DNA from: Actinopolymorpha pittospori | Lineage (GTDB): Bacteria; Actinomycetota; Actinomycetes; Propionibacteriales; Actinopolymorphaceae | DNA: 64,000 bases | Assembly (NCBI RefSeq): GCF_014873875.1 | Contig: NZ_JADBEM010000001.1 | Location: forward strand, 5,952,001 to 6,016,000 | Direction of reading: 5' to 3' | Part shown: positions 3-6,628 of the stretch, piece by piece | How positions within the stretch are numbered: position 1 is the stretch's first letter | Layout: the number at the start of each line of letters is the position of its first letter | Made by a program: the position numbers and the translations under genes | Notes under the pieces: model-generated | Told to the model about the DNA's origin: nothing | The model's input: the letters and a program-made list of their open reading frames with translations, nothing else | Databases searched by the model: none

Positions 3-74
3 GCCCTGCGCATGGCCCACGCCCGCGGCGACTTGGAGGAGGACTGCATCTTCCACAGCGATCGCGGCAGCGAG
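3..74 (+). pseudogene. IS3-family transposase (OrfB), first surviving piece
   Basis: Frame 3 reads through the IS3 integrase-core motif HSDRGSE, which carries the second Asp of the DDE triad. The gene enters from beyond the left window edge. The reading frame is lost at position 75, where an IS30 element begins, and resumes at 4089 with YTSREF, the expected continuation of HSDRGSEYTS. The tetranucleotide CGAG is present at 71-74 and again at 4085-4088 and looks like the target duplication. The pieces at 3-74, 4089-4270 and 6678-6786 together give a continuous OrfB carboxyl half. The gene is dead. Confidence 0.88.
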
Positions 75-105
75 CTTAGGTTCAAGGGGTCGTAGCAACA
101 CCGTC

Positions 106-599
106 CTAGGAAACTAAGGATAGGTGGTCTTTGAACGCTTCGGCGGGTGTTCTCCATCCGAGTGTTTTGCGGGGACGTGTGTTGAGGGTGGAGGCTATGG
201 CGTCGAGGTCGGTGATGCTGTGCCGCGACAGGTCGGTTCCTTTGGGGAAGTACTGGCGCAGCAGGCCGTTGGTGTTCTCGTTGGTGCCGCGCTGCCAGGG
301 TGAATGGGGGTCGCAGAAGTAGATGTCCAGACCGGTTTGGAGTTTCAGCTGTAGGTGTTGAGCCATCTCGGCTCCTTGGTCCCAGGTCAACGAGCGGCGC
401 AACTGCTCGGGCAGGCCGCCGATCTGGGCCGCGATCGCGTCGCGCACCGCCAACGCGCCGTGTCCGGCTAACGGTGGGCCGTTCTTCGTCGGTAGGGTGA
501 GTCCGTAGCTCTCCATCCGCGGCAGGTGCAGCAGGACGGTGAACCGCGTGGTGCGCTCGACAAGCGTCCCGATTGCCGATTGGTTGAGTCCGATGATGA
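106..599 (-). CDS. IS30 transposase, exon 2 (carboxyl half)
   Basis: This is the downstream exon of the IS30 transposase. It starts directly after the intron 3' end with TC ATC ATC GGA, which completes the Leu codon of the conserved GDLIIG motif, and runs through TLVERTTRF to the stop TAG at 108-106. It contains the second catalytic Asp (TWDQGAEMA) and the catalytic Glu region ([13 protein letters not shown]). Joined to exon 1 (3158-4037) it gives an uninterrupted transposase of about 457 residues, so the protein could be restored if the intron splices. No frameshift is visible in either exon. Confidence 0.88.
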
Positions 600-609
600 G
601 TCGGGTAGC

Positions 610-675
610 GGGGACGCATTACTGCGTCCCCGCCCCCTCAGAACCGTGCAAGCAGCTATTCACCGCACACGGCTC
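610..675 (-). ncRNA. Group II intron domains V and VI
   Basis: Domain V lies at 641-675 on the minus strand. It begins GAGCCG, carries a GCGGTGAA-type internal segment and ends CACGGTTC, so the two ends pair (GAGCCGTG with CACGGTTC) as in the catalytic hairpin. Downstream, 610-631 forms a GC-rich stem (GGGGACGCA/TGCGTCCCC) with unpaired adenosines in the middle, fitting domain VI and its branch-point A. The splice site is 9 bases past that stem. Domain V overlaps the maturase stop codon by two bases. Confidence 0.9.
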
Positions 676-2485
676 AAGCAAGCCCGAAAGGCGCACCGGC
701 AGGAGAAGGTGCGGGACTCGTCATCACGGCGGCTCCGTTCCGCCGTTGACAATGGGTGTGGAGGAGACGGACTCGTTGATCGCCAGGCGTGCTCTCCTCC
801 GGGAATGCGATGTATTGCTTGGAGATCGCCTTCCGGATGACGACCCGCCATGCTTCCCATTCTTGTGGGCTTTGTGGCGGGTGGTCGGCGTGCAGCAGGA
901 GCCCTCCGCAGACCGAGCAGCGGCCGTGTTGAGCCTGTAGGAGGCGCACGGTCATAGCGGCGACTGGCAGAGGTGTTCCCTTGCGGCGCCGCTGAGCCCA
1001 GTATGACTCCAGGGTGGGGTCGTCCGGGGACGCCTTCCCCTTGACCAACTGGTGCCGGACTATCTTCGTCCAGGAGAACTTGAGCAGGTAGGCGCCGCTG
1101 TCGCGGTCACCGAACACCCATCGGTCCCTCCTGGTCTTGTTGAACCGGCCGAAGTACTTGTCGCAGATCCAGTGCTTCGGCTTGTTCGGGTGGCCGTGCT
1201 TGGCCCACTTGTAAGCGAGCTTCCACATGTAGCTGTCCAGCGCCGTGAAGATTTCGCTGGACACCACCGTCCGGTAATAGGCCGACCAACCCCGCACAAT
1301 CGGGTTGATCTTCTTGAGTACCGCACCAGCGTTGGCCCCTCGCAGGGCCAGCATTTCGGTGCGCAGCCGTTCCCGGATCCGTCGTTGAGCCGCTGCACTC
1401 GGTTTGATCAGCAGCTTGCCGTGATAGCGGCGGACATTGAATCCCAGGAAGTCGAACCCGCTCTCCGCGTGGACAATGCGTGTCTTGCCCTCGTGGAAGG
1501 CGAGCCCCCGGGGCGTCAGCCATACCGCCAGCCGTTCCTTGACCTGTTCGGCCTGCTCACGGCTGGTGCACATCGCGACAAAATCATCTGCGTACCGCAC
1601 CAGCACGGGGCTACCGCTCTGCGCACTCCCGGCATCTCTGCCGGAGGTGTAATAGCGGACCCCTGCGGCTTCCTCCATCCCATGCAAGGCCACGTTGAAG
1701 AGCAAAGGGCTAATAACCCCGCCCTGCGGAGTTCCCTCCTCGGTCGGGGCGAACCGACCGCGATCCACGACCCCGGACTTCAGCCACTGCCGGACCAGTC
1801 CCCGGGCTGGGAAGGTGCCGAGCGCCGCCATGAGCCGGGCATGGTCGATACGGTCGAATGCCGCCGTCAGGTCAGCGTCGAGCACCCACGCACGCTGCGG
1901 GTTCTTCCCGTTGAGCGTGGAGTAGATGGCCCCGATCGCGTCGTGACAGCCGCGGCCAGGCCGGAAGCCATACGACTTCGGCTCGAACCGCGCTTCCCAC
2001 TCGGGCTCCAGTGCACCCAATGCCACAGCTTGCAGGCATCGGTCAACAATCACTGGAATCCCGAGCCCGCGCTTCTTCTTCGTCCCCGGCTTGGGGATAA
2101 ACACCCGCTTGACGGGCCAGGGAATCCACGGTCGGGCACGGTGCTGGACCCAGTCGGCCAGAGCGGCCTTTGACTGGGAAAGCAACACCACCTTCCCGTC
2201 GACTCCCGCCGTCGCACGTCCCGCGTTGATCTCCGTCACCCGTCGCACGCTCAGGAGCGTGTTCGAGCGGGACCGAAGCATCAGCTTCTGCAAATTGCGG
2301 ACCTTCCTCAGGTCCCCTGCCTGCGATGCCGTGAAGATTCTCTGCCGCAGACGTCGTACGTCTTCCTCGACCCGCCGCCAGTCAACCGACGCCCAGTCCA
2401 AGTCTTCGCCCTCGGGTCCGTTCACCAGCGCGGAGGCGGCAGAACGACCGAGGCCGTTCCGTCCCGCGATCAACATGGTGTCCAA
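674..2485 (-). CDS. ltrA: Group II intron reverse transcriptase/maturase with HNH domain
   Basis: This roughly 600-residue multifunctional intron protein assists splicing and copies the intron into new sites. Visible parts, in order: an N-terminal RT0-like segment, the finger-palm core with IPKPGTKKKRGLGIP, FRPGRGCHDAI and TPQGGVISPLLFN, the catalytic YADD box (LVRYADDFV), and the maturase X domain (NPIVRGWSAYYR). The C-terminal Cys-Cys endonuclease motif is CSVCGG followed by HTHCQRRN. The first in-frame start is TTG at 2485; ATG at 2476 is an alternative behind GAGGGG. The stop TGA overlaps the first bases of domain V, so the ORF fills the loop right up to the ribozyme core. All key residues seen are intact, so an active intron is plausible. 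Confidence 0.95.
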   Translation of the reverse strand: MDTMLIAGRNGLGRSAASALVNGPEGEDLDWASVDWRRVEEDVRRLRQRIFTASQAGDLRKVRNLQKLMLRSRSNTLLSVRRVTEINAGRATAGVDGKVVLLSQSKAALADWVQHRARPWIPWPVKRVFIPKPGTKKKRGLGIPVIVDRCLQAVALGALEPEWEARFEPKSYGFRPGRGCHDAIGAIYSTLNGKNPQRAWVLDADLTAAFDRIDHARLMAALGTFPARGLVRQWLKSGVVDRGRFAPTEEGTPQGGVISPLLFNVALHGMEEAAGVRYYTSGRDAGSAQSGSPVLVRYADDFVAMCTSREQAEQVKERLAVWLTPRGLAFHEGKTRIVHAESGFDFLGFNVRRYHGKLLIKPSAAAQRRIRERLRTEMLALRGANAGAVLKKINPIVRGWSAYYRTVVSSEIFTALDSYMWKLAYKWAKHGHPNKPKHWICDKYFGRFNKTRRDRWVFGDRDSGAYLLKFSWTKIVRHQLVKGKASPDDPTLESYWAQRRRKGTPLPVAAMTVRLLQAQHGRCSVCGGLLLHADHPPQSPQEWEAWRVVIRKAISKQYIAFPEESTPGDQRVRLLHTHCQRRNGAAVMTSPAPSPAGAPFGLA

Positions 2486-3157
2486 CTTGCCCCTCGGTTC
2501 CGTCGTCTTTCTTCAGTGATCTCTGCACAGGCTCACCTGGCCCACGTCAGCACCCTTTCGGGCCGGGCAGCACACCCGTATCCGGACGGTTATGCGGGGC
2601 GGCCGGCGGAGAGGCCGGCCATACTGCCCCGGGTTCCCGTTTCCTTTCGGCTTCCGGCATTGGCTTCTTGGGTCATCCTGTTCCCGCTGGGGAATTTAGC
2701 CTTCCTCACAGTCGGCCGACCGGGCTCCTAACAGCCCGGACCCCAACGGGGTTTCCACGTTCCACACGAATGAGATACGACCGGGGTGGGTGCTCCCTTT
2801 ACCCCGAGGCGGCGGTGTCCACCTGGCCGGAGTGACCTCTACCAGCCAGCGCCTACCGCTTCACAACGGCTAGCCATACACCCCACTAAGAACTTCCATC
2901 GGCGAGGCTTGGGATCACGAGGCATCATCGGGAGTTCACTTTCGTTCACCCGTCCGGTCTTCCCCTTGCCTGTAACTCCCGGATGGAACGGGAGTCCTTG
3001 GGCTTTCCCCTGAGCTTCGCACCACCCCGTTACCGGCGTCGCACGTCAAGGGCGGGGACGGGCCATACGGACACAGACCCGTGACTGCACCTACGGCCTT
3101 ATCAACCGCCTCTCCAACTGGACAGTCCACTCAAATTCGTGCGGCTTCGTGTCGCAC
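2486..3157 (-). ncRNA. 5' ribozyme region of the group II intron (domains I-III)
   Basis: This 670-base stretch between the splice donor and the maturase has no convincing coding frame and is where domains I to III of the intron RNA must lie. I did not fold it, so exon-binding sites and the subdomain layout are not assigned. The strongest support is positional: it starts at the GUGCGAC donor and ends at the maturase start. Confidence 0.75.
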
Positions 3158-4037
3158 GGTCGCCTTCCCAATGCCCTGGAACGGCCCGGTCCTCAACCTC
3201 AGCAGGCCGGTTGGTGATCAGCACCTCGGGCGTGACGAACTTCTTGCCCCGTCCACGGGTGCGGGCGCGGGGAACTCGAAGGGCACGGCCAGTGCGTAGG
3301 CAGGCAGTCAACTCGCGCTTGAGGGCGCCACGCCCTTGGATGTATAGGGCCTGGTAGATCGTCTCGTGCGAGATCCGCATTGACTCATCATCACCGAAGT
3401 CGACCTGCAGCCGCTTGCTGATCTGCTCGGGACTCCACGCAACTCCCCAGCGCCGGTCCGCGCGGCGGCCGTGACGCCTTCCCTTCCACGGCACGTTCGG
3501 TCCCGGGATCGGCCGGCCCTCGGCGTCGCGGACCACTCCTGCCAGCCGCTGTTCGACATAGCGACGGAGCCGATCGTTGACGGCCAGCTTCGCGACCTTC
3601 GGGCGCTTACCGCGACTCTCGGCGTGCCACTGGGCAACGGATGCGCGGTAGTCCACACGCCCGCCGCGGGTGGCGGCGTTGCGGCGCAGCTCCCGAGAAA
3701 TCGTCGAGGGGCTGCGACCCAGCTGTGAGGCGATCTGACGAACCCCATGGCCTTCGACTCTCAGCAGCGCGATCTCCTCACGCTCAGTGAACGACAGATA
3801 CCGACCCGACGGCTCGGCAAGACTGATCGGTGGCATGCCGCCACCCTCACGGAACCAGCGCGATCCCACTGGCACCGACACGCCGCACGCGACAGACGCG
3901 TCCTCACTCGACAATCCCTTCCTGACCTCACGCCAGAACCGTCGCTGGACCTCGCGAGCGTTGCCGCCTGGCCGACCCGACGACCGCATCGCCGGCCTTC
4001 CCGTAACAGCTGTCGTCCATCCCGGCGGACGCCCCAT
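3158..4037 (-). CDS. IS30 transposase, exon 1 (amino half)
   Basis: This is the upstream exon of the IS30 transposase. The chosen ATG at 4037 follows GGGAGG at about 7 bases. It holds the IS30 helix-turn-helix (SFTEREEIALLRVEGHGVRQ, then LGRSPSTISRELRRN), the linker with WSPEQISKRLQ and ISHETIYQALY, and ends in GHWEGD, the motif with the first catalytic Asp of the DDE triad. The intron donor follows one base after that Asp codon, inside the next codon. The exon is otherwise undamaged. Unspliced, translation would run from Asp into intron RNA and stop at about 3102. Confidence 0.88.
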
Positions 4038-4088
4038 CCACACACCTCCCTCTTCGAGGTGTTGCGACGACCACTGGAATCCGCCGAG

Positions 4089-4406: not shown

Positions 4407-5774
4407 ATGTTGACACGGGAGGACGATGTGGACGCACATGCGCTGCATCGCCGGGGCTGGACGATCTCTGCGATCGCCCGGCATCTGGGACATGACCGTA
4501 AGACCATCCGCGCCTATCTGAACGGGGACAGGGTCGCCGGGCAGCGCCGCCCGGCCGGGCCGGACCCGTTCGAGCCGTTCATCGGTTACTGCCGTGAGCG
4601 GCTGGTGGAGGACCCGCATCTGTGGGCGCAGACCCTCTTCGATGAGGTCACCAAGCTCGGTTACGCCCGTTCGTATCCGAGCTTCACCCGACAGCTGCGC
4701 ACCCAGCGGCTGCGGCCGCACTGTGAGCCGTGCTCACCGGCCAAAGGCCGCCCCGCCGCGGTGATCGAGCACCCGGCCGGTGAGGAGACCCAGTGGGACT
4801 GGGTAGAACTGCCCGACCCGCCGCAGCAGTGGGGCTGGGGTGGCAAGGCGTTCTTGCTGGTCGGGGCGCTGGCGCACTCTGGCCGCTGGCGCGGTGTCCT
4901 GGCCGCGTCGATGGATCAGCCGCATCTGGTGGACGCCCTGGACCGCACGACTCGTGCGCTCGGTGGGCTGAGCAGGGTGTGGCGGTTCGATCGGATGGCC
5001 ACCGTCTGCCACCCCGCTTCGGGAAGGATCACCTCCTCCTTCGCGGCGGTGGCCAAGCACTACGGCGTGCAGGTGGCGATCTGCCCGCCGCGGCGCGGGA
5101 ACCGCAAGGGCGTGGTGGAGAAGGCCAACCACACCGCCGCGCAACGGTGGTGGCGCACCCTGCCCGATGAGCTCACCCCCGAGCAGGCCCAGGCCAGCCT
5201 GGATGACTTCTGCCAGCTACGCGCCGATGTGCGGATCCGCGCCACCGCCGACGGCAAGGCCTCCGTGGCCGCCCTGGCCAACGCCGAGGGTGAGCGTCTG
5301 AGGCCGGTGCCTGCCAGGCCGTTCCCCGCCACGATCACCGTGCAACGCCTCGCCTCGGCACAGGCGCTGGTCGCCTACCGCGGTAACCGCTACTCGGTCC
5401 CACCCGAACTCGCCCACGCGACCGTGACCGTCTCCCACCGGCTCGGCGCCCACCACCTCGACATCGCCACCACCAACGGCACCGTGATCGCCCAACACCG
5501 GCTCGCGATCGACGGCGCCGGGGTGATGGTCCGCGACCACGGCCACGTCCACGCCCTCAACCACGCTGCCCTGACCGCGTTCACCGATGCCGCCCCGCAC
5601 CGACGCAAGCAGCGCATCCCACCCGGACCCGCCGCCCGAGCAGCCGCCGACCAGCTCCGCACCCGCCACCAAGCCGCCGACCCCGGCCGCGGCGAGGGCC
5701 CACCCGACCAGGGCGTGGTCATCGACCTGGCCCGCTACGCAACCGCAGCCAAAGGAAGGAACACCCTCACATGA
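4407..5774 (+). CDS. istA: IS21 transposase IstA (copy A)
   Basis: This 455-residue DDE transposase carries out strand transfer for the IS21 element. The N-terminal helix-turn-helix (HRRGWTISAIARHLGHDRKT) binds the terminal repeats. The integrase core shows QWDWVELP (first Asp), VWRFDRMATVC (second Asp) and NRKGVVEKAN (Glu). A C-terminal DUF/beta-barrel segment (YRGNRYSVPPELA) follows. The gene ends in an ATGA overlap with istB, so the two are translationally coupled. It differs strongly from the second IstA at 41378-42979, so these are two independent IS21 lineages. No defect was seen. Confidence 0.95.
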   Translation: MLTREDDVDAHALHRRGWTISAIARHLGHDRKTIRAYLNGDRVAGQRRPAGPDPFEPFIGYCRERLVEDPHLWAQTLFDEVTKLGYARSYPSFTRQLRTQRLRPHCEPCSPAKGRPAAVIEHPAGEETQWDWVELPDPPQQWGWGGKAFLLVGALAHSGRWRGVLAASMDQPHLVDALDRTTRALGGLSRVWRFDRMATVCHPASGRITSSFAAVAKHYGVQVAICPPRRGNRKGVVEKANHTAAQRWWRTLPDELTPEQAQASLDDFCQLRADVRIRATADGKASVAALANAEGERLRPVPARPFPATITVQRLASAQALVAYRGNRYSVPPELAHATVTVSHRLGAHHLDIATTNGTVIAQHRLAIDGAGVMVRDHGHVHALNHAALTAFTDAAPHRRKQRIPPGPAARAAADQLRTRHQAADPGRGEGPPDQGVVIDLARYATAAKGRNTLT

Positions 5775-6628
5775 CCACCACGACCACGACCATGACGCCT
5801 GCGGGGCCGAGAACACCGGCCCAGGCCAGCCTCTACCAGCAGCTGCGTGCCCACCTGGCCACGTTGAAGCTGCACGACGCCGCCGAGCACCTGCCCGCCG
5901 TGCTGGCCGCCGCCGAGACCGAGCAACTGTCGATGACCGCAACCCTGGAACGGCTCCTGGCGATCGAGGTCGACGCCAACCAAGCCCGCCGCCTGGCCGG
6001 CCGGCTCCGGTTCGCGTCCCTGCCCACCCCCGCGACCCTGGCCGACTTCGACTACGACGCCGCACCCGCCGTGGACAAAAAACTGATCGAGGAACTGGCC
6101 ACCTGCCGCTACCTCGAGTCCGCCACCAACGTCCTGCTCATCGGTCCACCCGGAGTGGGCAAGACCCATCTGGCCGTGGGACTTGGCCGCGCCGCCGCCG
6201 AAGCCGGCTACCGCACCTACTTCACCACCGCCGCCGACCTCGCCGCCCGCTGCCACCGCGCGGCCATCGAAGGCCGCTGGGCCACCACCATGCGCTTCTT
6301 CGCCGGCCCCACCCTGCTCGTCATCGACGAACTGGGCTACCTGCCCCTGCCCGGTGAAGCCGCGTCCGCCCTGTTCCAAGTCGTGTCGCAGCGCTACCTC
6401 AAAACCTCGATCGTCCTCACCACGAATCGCGGTGTCGCCTCCTGGGGTGAGGTCCTCGGCGACACCACCGTCGCCGCCGCCATGCTCGACCGACTCCTCC
6501 ACCGCAGCGTCGTCCTCAACTCGACGGAGACTCCTACCGACTCCGCAACCACCACGCCCGAGCCGACACACTCCGACAAGCCGCCACCGGCACCCGCCGA
6601 CCACTACAGTGACCGCACCACCAGGTGA
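5771..6628 (+). CDS. istB: IS21 helper ATPase IstB (copy A)
   Basis: IstB is the AAA+ ATPase that assembles on target DNA and stimulates IstA. The 285-residue product shows a Walker A motif (LLIGPPGVGKTHLAVGLG), Walker B (LLVIDELGYLPL) and sensor residues (IVLTTNRGVASWGEV), with the usual N-terminal helical segment. It starts in the ATGA overlap with istA. The last 30 residues are a Pro/Ser/Thr-rich tail running close to the right terminal repeat. The gene appears intact. Confidence 0.95.
   Translation: MTTTTTTMTPAGPRTPAQASLYQQLRAHLATLKLHDAAEHLPAVLAAAETEQLSMTATLERLLAIEVDANQARRLAGRLRFASLPTPATLADFDYDAAPAVDKKLIEELATCRYLESATNVLLIGPPGVGKTHLAVGLGRAAAEAGYRTYFTTAADLAARCHRAAIEGRWATTMRFFAGPTLLVIDELGYLPLPGEAASALFQVVSQRYLKTSIVLTTNRGVASWGEVLGDTTVAAAMLDRLLHRSVVLNSTETPTDSATTTPEPTHSDKPPPAPADHYSDRTTR

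Follow-up and report, generated by a model that had tools for sequence, protein, structure and literature searches.

A group II intron that probably homes into one dedicated site in IS30 transposase genes of actinobacteria

We analysed a stretch of 64,000 nucleotides of Actinopolymorpha pittospori DNA (the window) and identified an insertion sequence of the IS30 family, IS30-A, whose transposase gene is divided into two exons by a group II intron that encodes its own protein (Table 1). Besides an IS30 transposase, the element has the 28-bp imperfect repeats and 3-bp target duplications by which we assign it to the IS30 family, both read by eye in three copies. The target duplication of E. coli IS30 is given as 2 bp (PMC9333248). 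The region beside IS30-A (window 4407-6628) appears to hold an IS21-type istA/istB pair, judged by eye from the list of open reading frames.

Table 1. Features of the intron and its host element. Positions are those of the window.
Feature	Position	Strand	Remarks
IS30-A element including intron	75..4085	-	4011 bp; 1453 bp without intron; limits by eye, three copies, different flanks
3-bp target duplication GAG, left copy	72..74	+	
3-bp target duplication GAG, right copy	4086..4088	+	
Terminal inverted repeat	75..102	+	20/28 positions match other end, by eye
Terminal inverted repeat, transposase 5' side	4058..4085	-	
Exon 1 of IS30-A transposase	3158..4037	-	MGRPPGW... to GHWEGD plus one base
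Exon 2 of IS30-A transposase with stop codon	106..599	-	
Group II intron	600..3157	-	2558 nt; 5' end 3157, 3' end 600; same boundaries in four genome copies; RF00029
Intron domains 5 and 6	600..677	-	RF00029
Intron-encoded protein: RT, maturase, C-terminal Cys/His-containing tail	674..2485	-	TTG start uncertain
EBS1 (GGTCACT, intron nt 321-327)	2831..2837	-	Predicted hairpin loop; scan gave nt 322-327, nt 321 added by eye
EBS2 (TCCCAA, intron nt 244-249)	2909..2914	-	Predicted loop
EBS3 (A, intron nt 359)	2799..2799	-	Pairs with first base of exon 2
IBS1 (GGCGACC), last 7 nt of exon 1	3158..3164	-	Gly-Asp codons plus first base of Leu
IBS2 (TTGGGA)	3166..3171	-	Inside His-Trp-Glu codons
IBS3 (T), exon 2 first base	599..599	-	

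The intron is confirmed as a complete group II intron with a reverse transcriptase (RT)/maturase frame, and the coordinates proposed for it in a first-pass annotation, made from the letters alone, proved exact. It begins with GTGCGAC and ends with CCCGAC, and its last 78 nt match the Rfam model for domains 5 and 6 (51.6 bits, where the gathering score is 40). By eye, we recognized an AGC near the start of domain 5 and, 7 nt short of the intron's 3' end, an A that may be the branch point. The encoded protein matches RVT_1, RVT_N and GIIM of Pfam as well as TIGR04416 (312.9 bits, cut-off 300). Its tail shows CSVCGG...LHTHC, and a Pfam search of the protein gave no HNH endonuclease match at E<=0.001. 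The closest solved RT is 6me0 (340 bits), which we take to be TeI4h. EBS3-type recognition of the 3' exon and 6me0 as the nearest solved RT would suit a subclass IIB intron with a CL-type RT, a candidate assignment.

The joint lies one nucleotide into the Leu codon that follows the Asp of GHWEGD, presumably the first catalytic residue of the IS30 transposase. The first-pass annotation had correctly placed the intron in the codon after this Asp. Joining the exons in silico gives 457 aa in which GHWEGD-LIIG is read without a stop, and the product matches the IS30 transposase model NF033563 (252 bits, cut-off 80), as expected from the earlier view that the exons are undamaged and that about 457 residues would be restored. 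The unspliced frame ends 18 codons past GHWEGD (ORF end GDRATRSRTNLSGLSSWRGG).

All three IS30-A copies interrupt a frame with an HSDRG motif, which we take to be an IS3-type transposase. Intron-bearing IS30 elements lie in an HSDRGxQ/Y(TS) motif (here and below, a slash marks the joint) at 8 of the 21 loci looked at, an arrangement of an intron in an IS30 in what is presumably an IS3. The eight loci are L005, L006, L007, L040, L041, L043, L085 and L114, and in the window the arrangement is seen at 72-74 and 4086-4088; L006 and L007 occupy the same motif in opposite orientations.

Target recognition was examined by a covariation scan, in which the first 720 nt of 54 introns from any site were aligned and every column was compared with each intron's own exon 1 end. 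The scan peaks at intron nt 322–327 with exon positions −7 to −2 (EBS1) and at nt 244–249 with −14 to −9 (EBS2). With wobbles counted, a mean of 5.05 and 4.91 of the 6 positions pair among 22 representatives, versus at most 3.86 at any place in 60 shuffles of the exons. For the base that opens exon 2, a single column, nt 359 (EBS3), gives a pair in 21 of the 22 representatives, with all four bases in use; the next best column reaches 59%. In the window, EBS1, EBS2 and EBS3 fit the target TGGGARGGNGAYY followed, across the joint, by T. Exon-binding sites that do not pair with the end of exon 1 had been named as an outcome that would count against the proposed homing site; the covariation of EBS1 and EBS2 points the other way.

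EBS1 fits GGNGAYY with wobbles, and EBS2 reads the TGGGA of the Trp-Glu codons. The one position of EBS1 that is left without a partner faces the third, synonymous base of the Gly codon (GGN), except where that base is T. Introns at the IS30 codon have EBS1 GGTCACT and EBS2 TCCCAA in all rows aligned, with two exceptions: the EBS region is deleted in L038, and one EBS1 base differs in L054. When folded in silico, the 181-nt segment that holds the EBS does not outperform its shuffles (z 0.42).

The 10.56-Mb genome from which the window comes (G000) contains four intron copies, three in IS30-A and one (L004) at the same codon of a different IS30. The L004 intron has two mismatches in 2558 nt relative to that of the window (99.9% identical), in a host transposase that is 61% identical to that of IS30-A around the joint and 58% identical over the last 100 exon 1 residues. 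This pair by itself shows that the intron has passed from one IS30 host to another.

To look further afield, we ran a pattern consisting of HWEGD and the first bases of the intron over a collection of 84,980 species. It returned 29 stretches: in 22, an IS30 gene is joined at the codon to the first bases of the intron, and the other 7 are unrelated. The IS30 matches come from 15 genomes or MAGs, mostly of Streptomyces and otherwise of other actinobacteria; 18 are 88–93% identical to the window intron over the part present, L054 is 70% identical, and three are too short or cut for an alignment. Viral contigs scanned with a pattern gave no match.

Because this pattern presupposes the site, we also searched with the whole intron, irrespective of site. 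In sets of 394 genomes (a sample of the class) and 392 genomes (one genus, apparently Streptomyces), the best two candidates per genome were scored, and further copies in a genome are missed. Among these candidates, the class sample gave no match above 76% over at least 300 nt outside G000. The single-genus set gave at least eight full-length copies at 89–91% identity in six genomes, and 8 of the 8 listed lie at the IS30 codon. Six plasmid records have copies above 90% identity over at least 99% of the intron, all in IS30. Both joints were read in four, and both outer joints in a fifth, which is a tandem pair; the last, which lacks the first 31 nt, was read at the 3' joint only. Plasmid copies L190–L192 share their flanks and represent a single insertion; the host joints of L189 are those of L087. 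In total, 18 of the 18 copies at least 89% identical that were examined without regard to site lie in IS30 (17 at the codon, one placed by its 3' joint only); they comprise 4 from the own genome, 8 from one genus and 6 from plasmids, and independent insertions are fewer. The count does not take in the incomplete hits H15-H20 on plasmids, the second places of H2 and H6, or most of the plasmid relatives with 60-80% identity. Also outside the count are the short fragments L116-L120, of which L117 and L118 adjoin IS30 exon 2 (by eye) and the other three do not.

The tandem pair (L188, NZ_CP109405.1, 1-5054, with L197) consists of two introns in direct orientation in one IS30 gene of a Streptomyces plasmid. 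The 5' end of the second directly abuts the 3' end of the first, and the 2500 nt compared are identical.

Empty sites were sought with a pattern that covers only Leu codons followed by RTN codons, and the occupancy counts come largely from genomes picked for carrying the intron. Among the 392 genomes, six have the first bases of the intron at cognate sites, 13 in all. Another 103 genomes contain 211 cognate sites that are empty, in keeping with the earlier suggestion that a site in IS30 would offer many potential targets. No genome in this set has both occupied and empty cognate sites. Only two of the six carriers have several sites (7/7 and 2/2 occupied); in G000, 4/5 are occupied. The seven motif sites of G000 comprise the four occupied ones, one empty cognate site in a broken IS30, and two empty sites with a Cys codon, at which the IBS3 base is G. 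We considered saturation of sites as a general law and set it aside as weak; among the genomes examined for both occupied and empty sites, three carriers have more than one cognate site. In G705, an intron remnant lies beside IS30 exon 2, and three sites are empty.

From these comparisons of sequence, we consider it very probable that a mobile intron encoding an RT/maturase spreads by homing and that its single dedicated site is the IS30 DNA for Trp-Glu-Gly-Asp/Leu around the presumed first catalytic Asp. A dedicated site is what the first-pass annotation had proposed, along with a search for the same intron in other IS30 genes. That search gave repeated finds at the same codon in many IS30 hosts, rather than the absence of any second copy that would have spoken against the idea. 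The target would be chosen by pairing of EBS2 with TGGGA, of EBS1 with GGNGAYY and of EBS3 with the T after the joint. Because the paired positions are nearly invariant, and the unpaired EBS1 base falls on the synonymous third base of Gly, one intron could enter widely differing IS30 genes. The anatomy of the intron, the EBS/IBS covariation, the insertion in different hosts and the spread beyond host descent are established at the sequence level. The intron would splice in vivo and move by target-primed reverse transcription, and a full transposase would require splicing. Points against homing into a dedicated site are that empty cognate sites are common in intron-free genomes, that one cognate site in G000 is empty, that some copies may have moved with their IS30, that Pfam recognized no endonuclease domain in the intron protein, and that many of the hosts look decayed.

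Host integrity was judged by thresholds of 240 aa or more for exon 1, 140 aa or more for exon 2 and 600 aa or more for the intron frame. Among 20 IS30 loci with both ends, 14 pass both exon thresholds and 6 have a short transposase frame. The intron frame is kept in 19 of the 20 (it is broken in L034), and in L090 it has no YADD string. By eye, L028 appears shifted in exon 2, and the Asp of TWDxG is lost in L033, L034, L036 and L090. Thus, many hosts seem to have decayed. Long frames together with both the Asp and the Glu motif (by eye) are preserved in 11 of the 20. These hosts, among them IS30-B and every IS30-A copy, look able to give a full transposase if the intron is spliced out.

It is possible, if somewhat less than probable, that the intron homes but hardly splices, which would make each interrupted IS30 copy a dead target. 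Roughly half of the hosts look decayed (the six short ones, one more that is shifted and two more without the TWDxG Asp), and RmInt1 ligates <1% of its exons in vivo (PMC4238363); the 11 hosts with long frames and both motifs argue against this reading. We find it doubtful that poor splicing is accompanied by retention of the intron for limiting IS30 transposition. Unspliced RNA would yield a truncated transposase, and there is a precedent: restraint of an IS by its intron, an idea that the first-pass annotation also raised, was proposed for RmInt1 in ISRm2011-2 (PMC4238363). A homing intron, however, requires no benefit to its host, and three IS30-A copies exist, though the intron may have entered each separately.

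Conservation of the target was measured on IS30 genes gathered from 98 genomes by protein family, regardless of the intron; of 30 loci, a filter for frame and motif let 16 through, and 14 distinct genes were kept. When 814 windows of these genes are ordered by DNA conservation, the 14-nt target has rank 7, a place favoured by the filter, which itself demanded a GHWEGD-like motif. The earlier description of the site as the most conserved DNA of IS30 genes is therefore nearly right, with the same bias; a patch encoding NENTNG comes first, and the target is the second patch. All 16 filtered loci have Leu after the Asp and T at the IBS3 position. Such conservation would also suit an intron of low specificity that lands in any conserved DNA and for which the IS30 codon is no more than a frequent hit. 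We regard this as very unlikely, given that every site-blind copy examined lies in IS30, that all three exon-binding sites fit the IS30 target, and that the Cys codon at two empty sites of the own genome removes the IBS3 base.

Homing can be separated from transport with IS30 by comparing introns with their hosts. One genome (NBC_01549) has seven IS30 loci whose introns show no substitutions in the pairs compared (100.0%; 0–2 gap positions), while host similarity falls to 46% over the final 100 residues of exon 1. Near-identical introns in IS30 hosts less than 50% alike indicate that the intron homes rather than only riding. We discarded a value of 39% host identity, as it involves L028 with its frame-shifted exon 2; the exon 1 minimum in that genome is 46%. 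Host and intron distances are not significantly correlated (r=0.158, p=0.19, n=14; for exon 1 alone, r=0.062, p=0.33, n=14). Eight pairs of close IS copies, both members from one genome, show more divergence in their exons than in their introns (e.g., 8 of 885 nt vs 0 of 2558). Among the three IS30-A copies, exon 1 differs at 4-8 of 885 nt, the intron at 0-1 of 2558 and exon 2 at 0 of 490, and 7 of the 8 variable exon 1 sites are third codon positions. Given this difference between exon 1 and the intron, separate homing into three existing IS30-A copies is as likely as their joint multiplication, and we dropped the carriage of the intron by IS30-A as a sign of splicing. That a single insertion into one IS30 spread solely by IS30 transposition, as the three near-identical IS30-A copies with different flanks, IS ends and 3-bp duplications might suggest, has next to no likelihood in the face of near-identical introns in such dissimilar hosts, introns less diverged than the surrounding exons and the lack of host-intron congruence. 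On this comparison, L004 and the NBC_01549 hosts refute riding as the sole route, and riding may occur alongside homing.

Homing of group II introns into the transposase genes of IS elements has been described before. Work by Han in 2004, cited in PMC3522654, reportedly concerned the conserved regions of IS3 elements. E.c.I4 of Escherichia and Shigella, with which IntA is apparently identical, judging from a citation in PMC3522654, lies in IS3-like transposases, for which occupancy tables are given (PMC3522654). It resembles the IS30 intron in retrohoming to specific transposase positions of one IS family in various IS hosts, with sites that are sometimes saturated, and differs in its IS3-family target and enterobacterial distribution. 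The intron described here does not have the IS3-family host of E.c.I4-like introns, since its joined exons match the IS30 model. The clade to which it belongs is similar to the TeI4 introns of Thermosynechococcus elongatus in its closest solved RT (6me0, which we take to be TeI4h), in its diverging target specificity and in inserting into other introns. The TeI4 introns diverged within one genome, whereas among the relatives of the IS30 intron different lineages go with different transposase families within an actinobacterial class. TeI4 introns proliferated by divergence of target specificity and by insertion into other introns (PMC2882425). RmInt1 of Sinorhizobium also homes into a transposase gene, that of ISRm2011-2, which is of a different family, IS630 (PMC5894124, PMC4238363); its protein is described as having no endonuclease domain (PMC8914252). 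In the literature covered, mostly openly available papers, we found neither an IS30-dedicated group II intron nor an actinobacterial clade ranging across transposase families.

Relatives with 66–75% identity occupy motifs that are conserved in transposases of other families, and their EBS fit their own targets. The sites are IS1380-like (LLRPGNAGS/NTADDH and, once, GNFKG/GYGHH in L056), IS4-type (LYHERW/EHES), IS5-type (VERCFNRLK/QWRG), IS630-type, IS21-type (QWDW/LG and QVDWG/DEG), ISAzo13-type (VDAKKKE/KVG) and DDE_5-type (IEECF/QQAK); one relative lies at a methyltransferase-like LEIGTG motif. A Pfam transposase or integrase domain was identified in 7 of 8 such hosts, and L064 has only helix-turn-helix and terminase-like matches. 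Apart from names carried by Pfam, the IS families of these hosts and their catalytic residues are our own assignments, and the nearness of the sites to these residues is provisional. The 5' ends of some relatives (e.g., L094, L096–L098, L102–L110) were placed at the nearest GTGCGAC and not by alignment; in L106, L108 and L110 only the 5' joint was read, and relatives read at one end (e.g., L065-L073) were left unclassed. In a tree, 45 introns group largely by target, with 13 label changes (minimum 11) against an average of 27.1 in shuffles.

L054 (848-3358; 70% identity) also lies at the IS30 codon, and it shares EBS2 and, but for one base, EBS1 with the other introns there. A single clade of L054 and the main IS30 lineage is rejected for the RT region (p-AU 7.6e-67) and not for the domain I region (0.357). 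We rejected clean convergence for this intron, as domain I is compatible with the main IS30 lineage. The differing affinities suggest a mosaic or convergence, and thus a second arrival at the codon by convergence or by exchange of domain I.

Taking the relatives together, we favour, with some reserve, the view that an actinobacterial clade radiated over transposases through changes in EBS1, EBS2 and EBS3. Its lineages would each be dedicated to a conserved, mostly catalytic motif of one family (IS30, IS1380, IS4-type, IS630, IS5, IS21, ISAzo13-type or DDE_5/IS701-type) or to the RTs of other introns, and the IS30 codon would have been reached at least twice, by convergence or domain I exchange. 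Such a clade supplies a set of naturally retargeted introns whose EBS/IBS solutions can be read, which would help in studying target switching and perhaps in gene targeting in actinobacteria. If the IS30 intron works as we infer, it is a selfish RNA that secures lasting targets by reading bases that can hardly change without loss of catalysis, and it leaves unpaired the single base that varies freely. Matched intron-free and intron-bearing IS30 copies make it testable whether such an intron restrains or exploits its host.

Four further relatives (L062, L104, L105 and L107) have no clear host frame; their EBS fit to the flanks varies, and their targets are perhaps intergenic. Three others (L097, L098 and L106) lie inside RT genes of other group II introns, at FDFLG/F and TPQGG/V.
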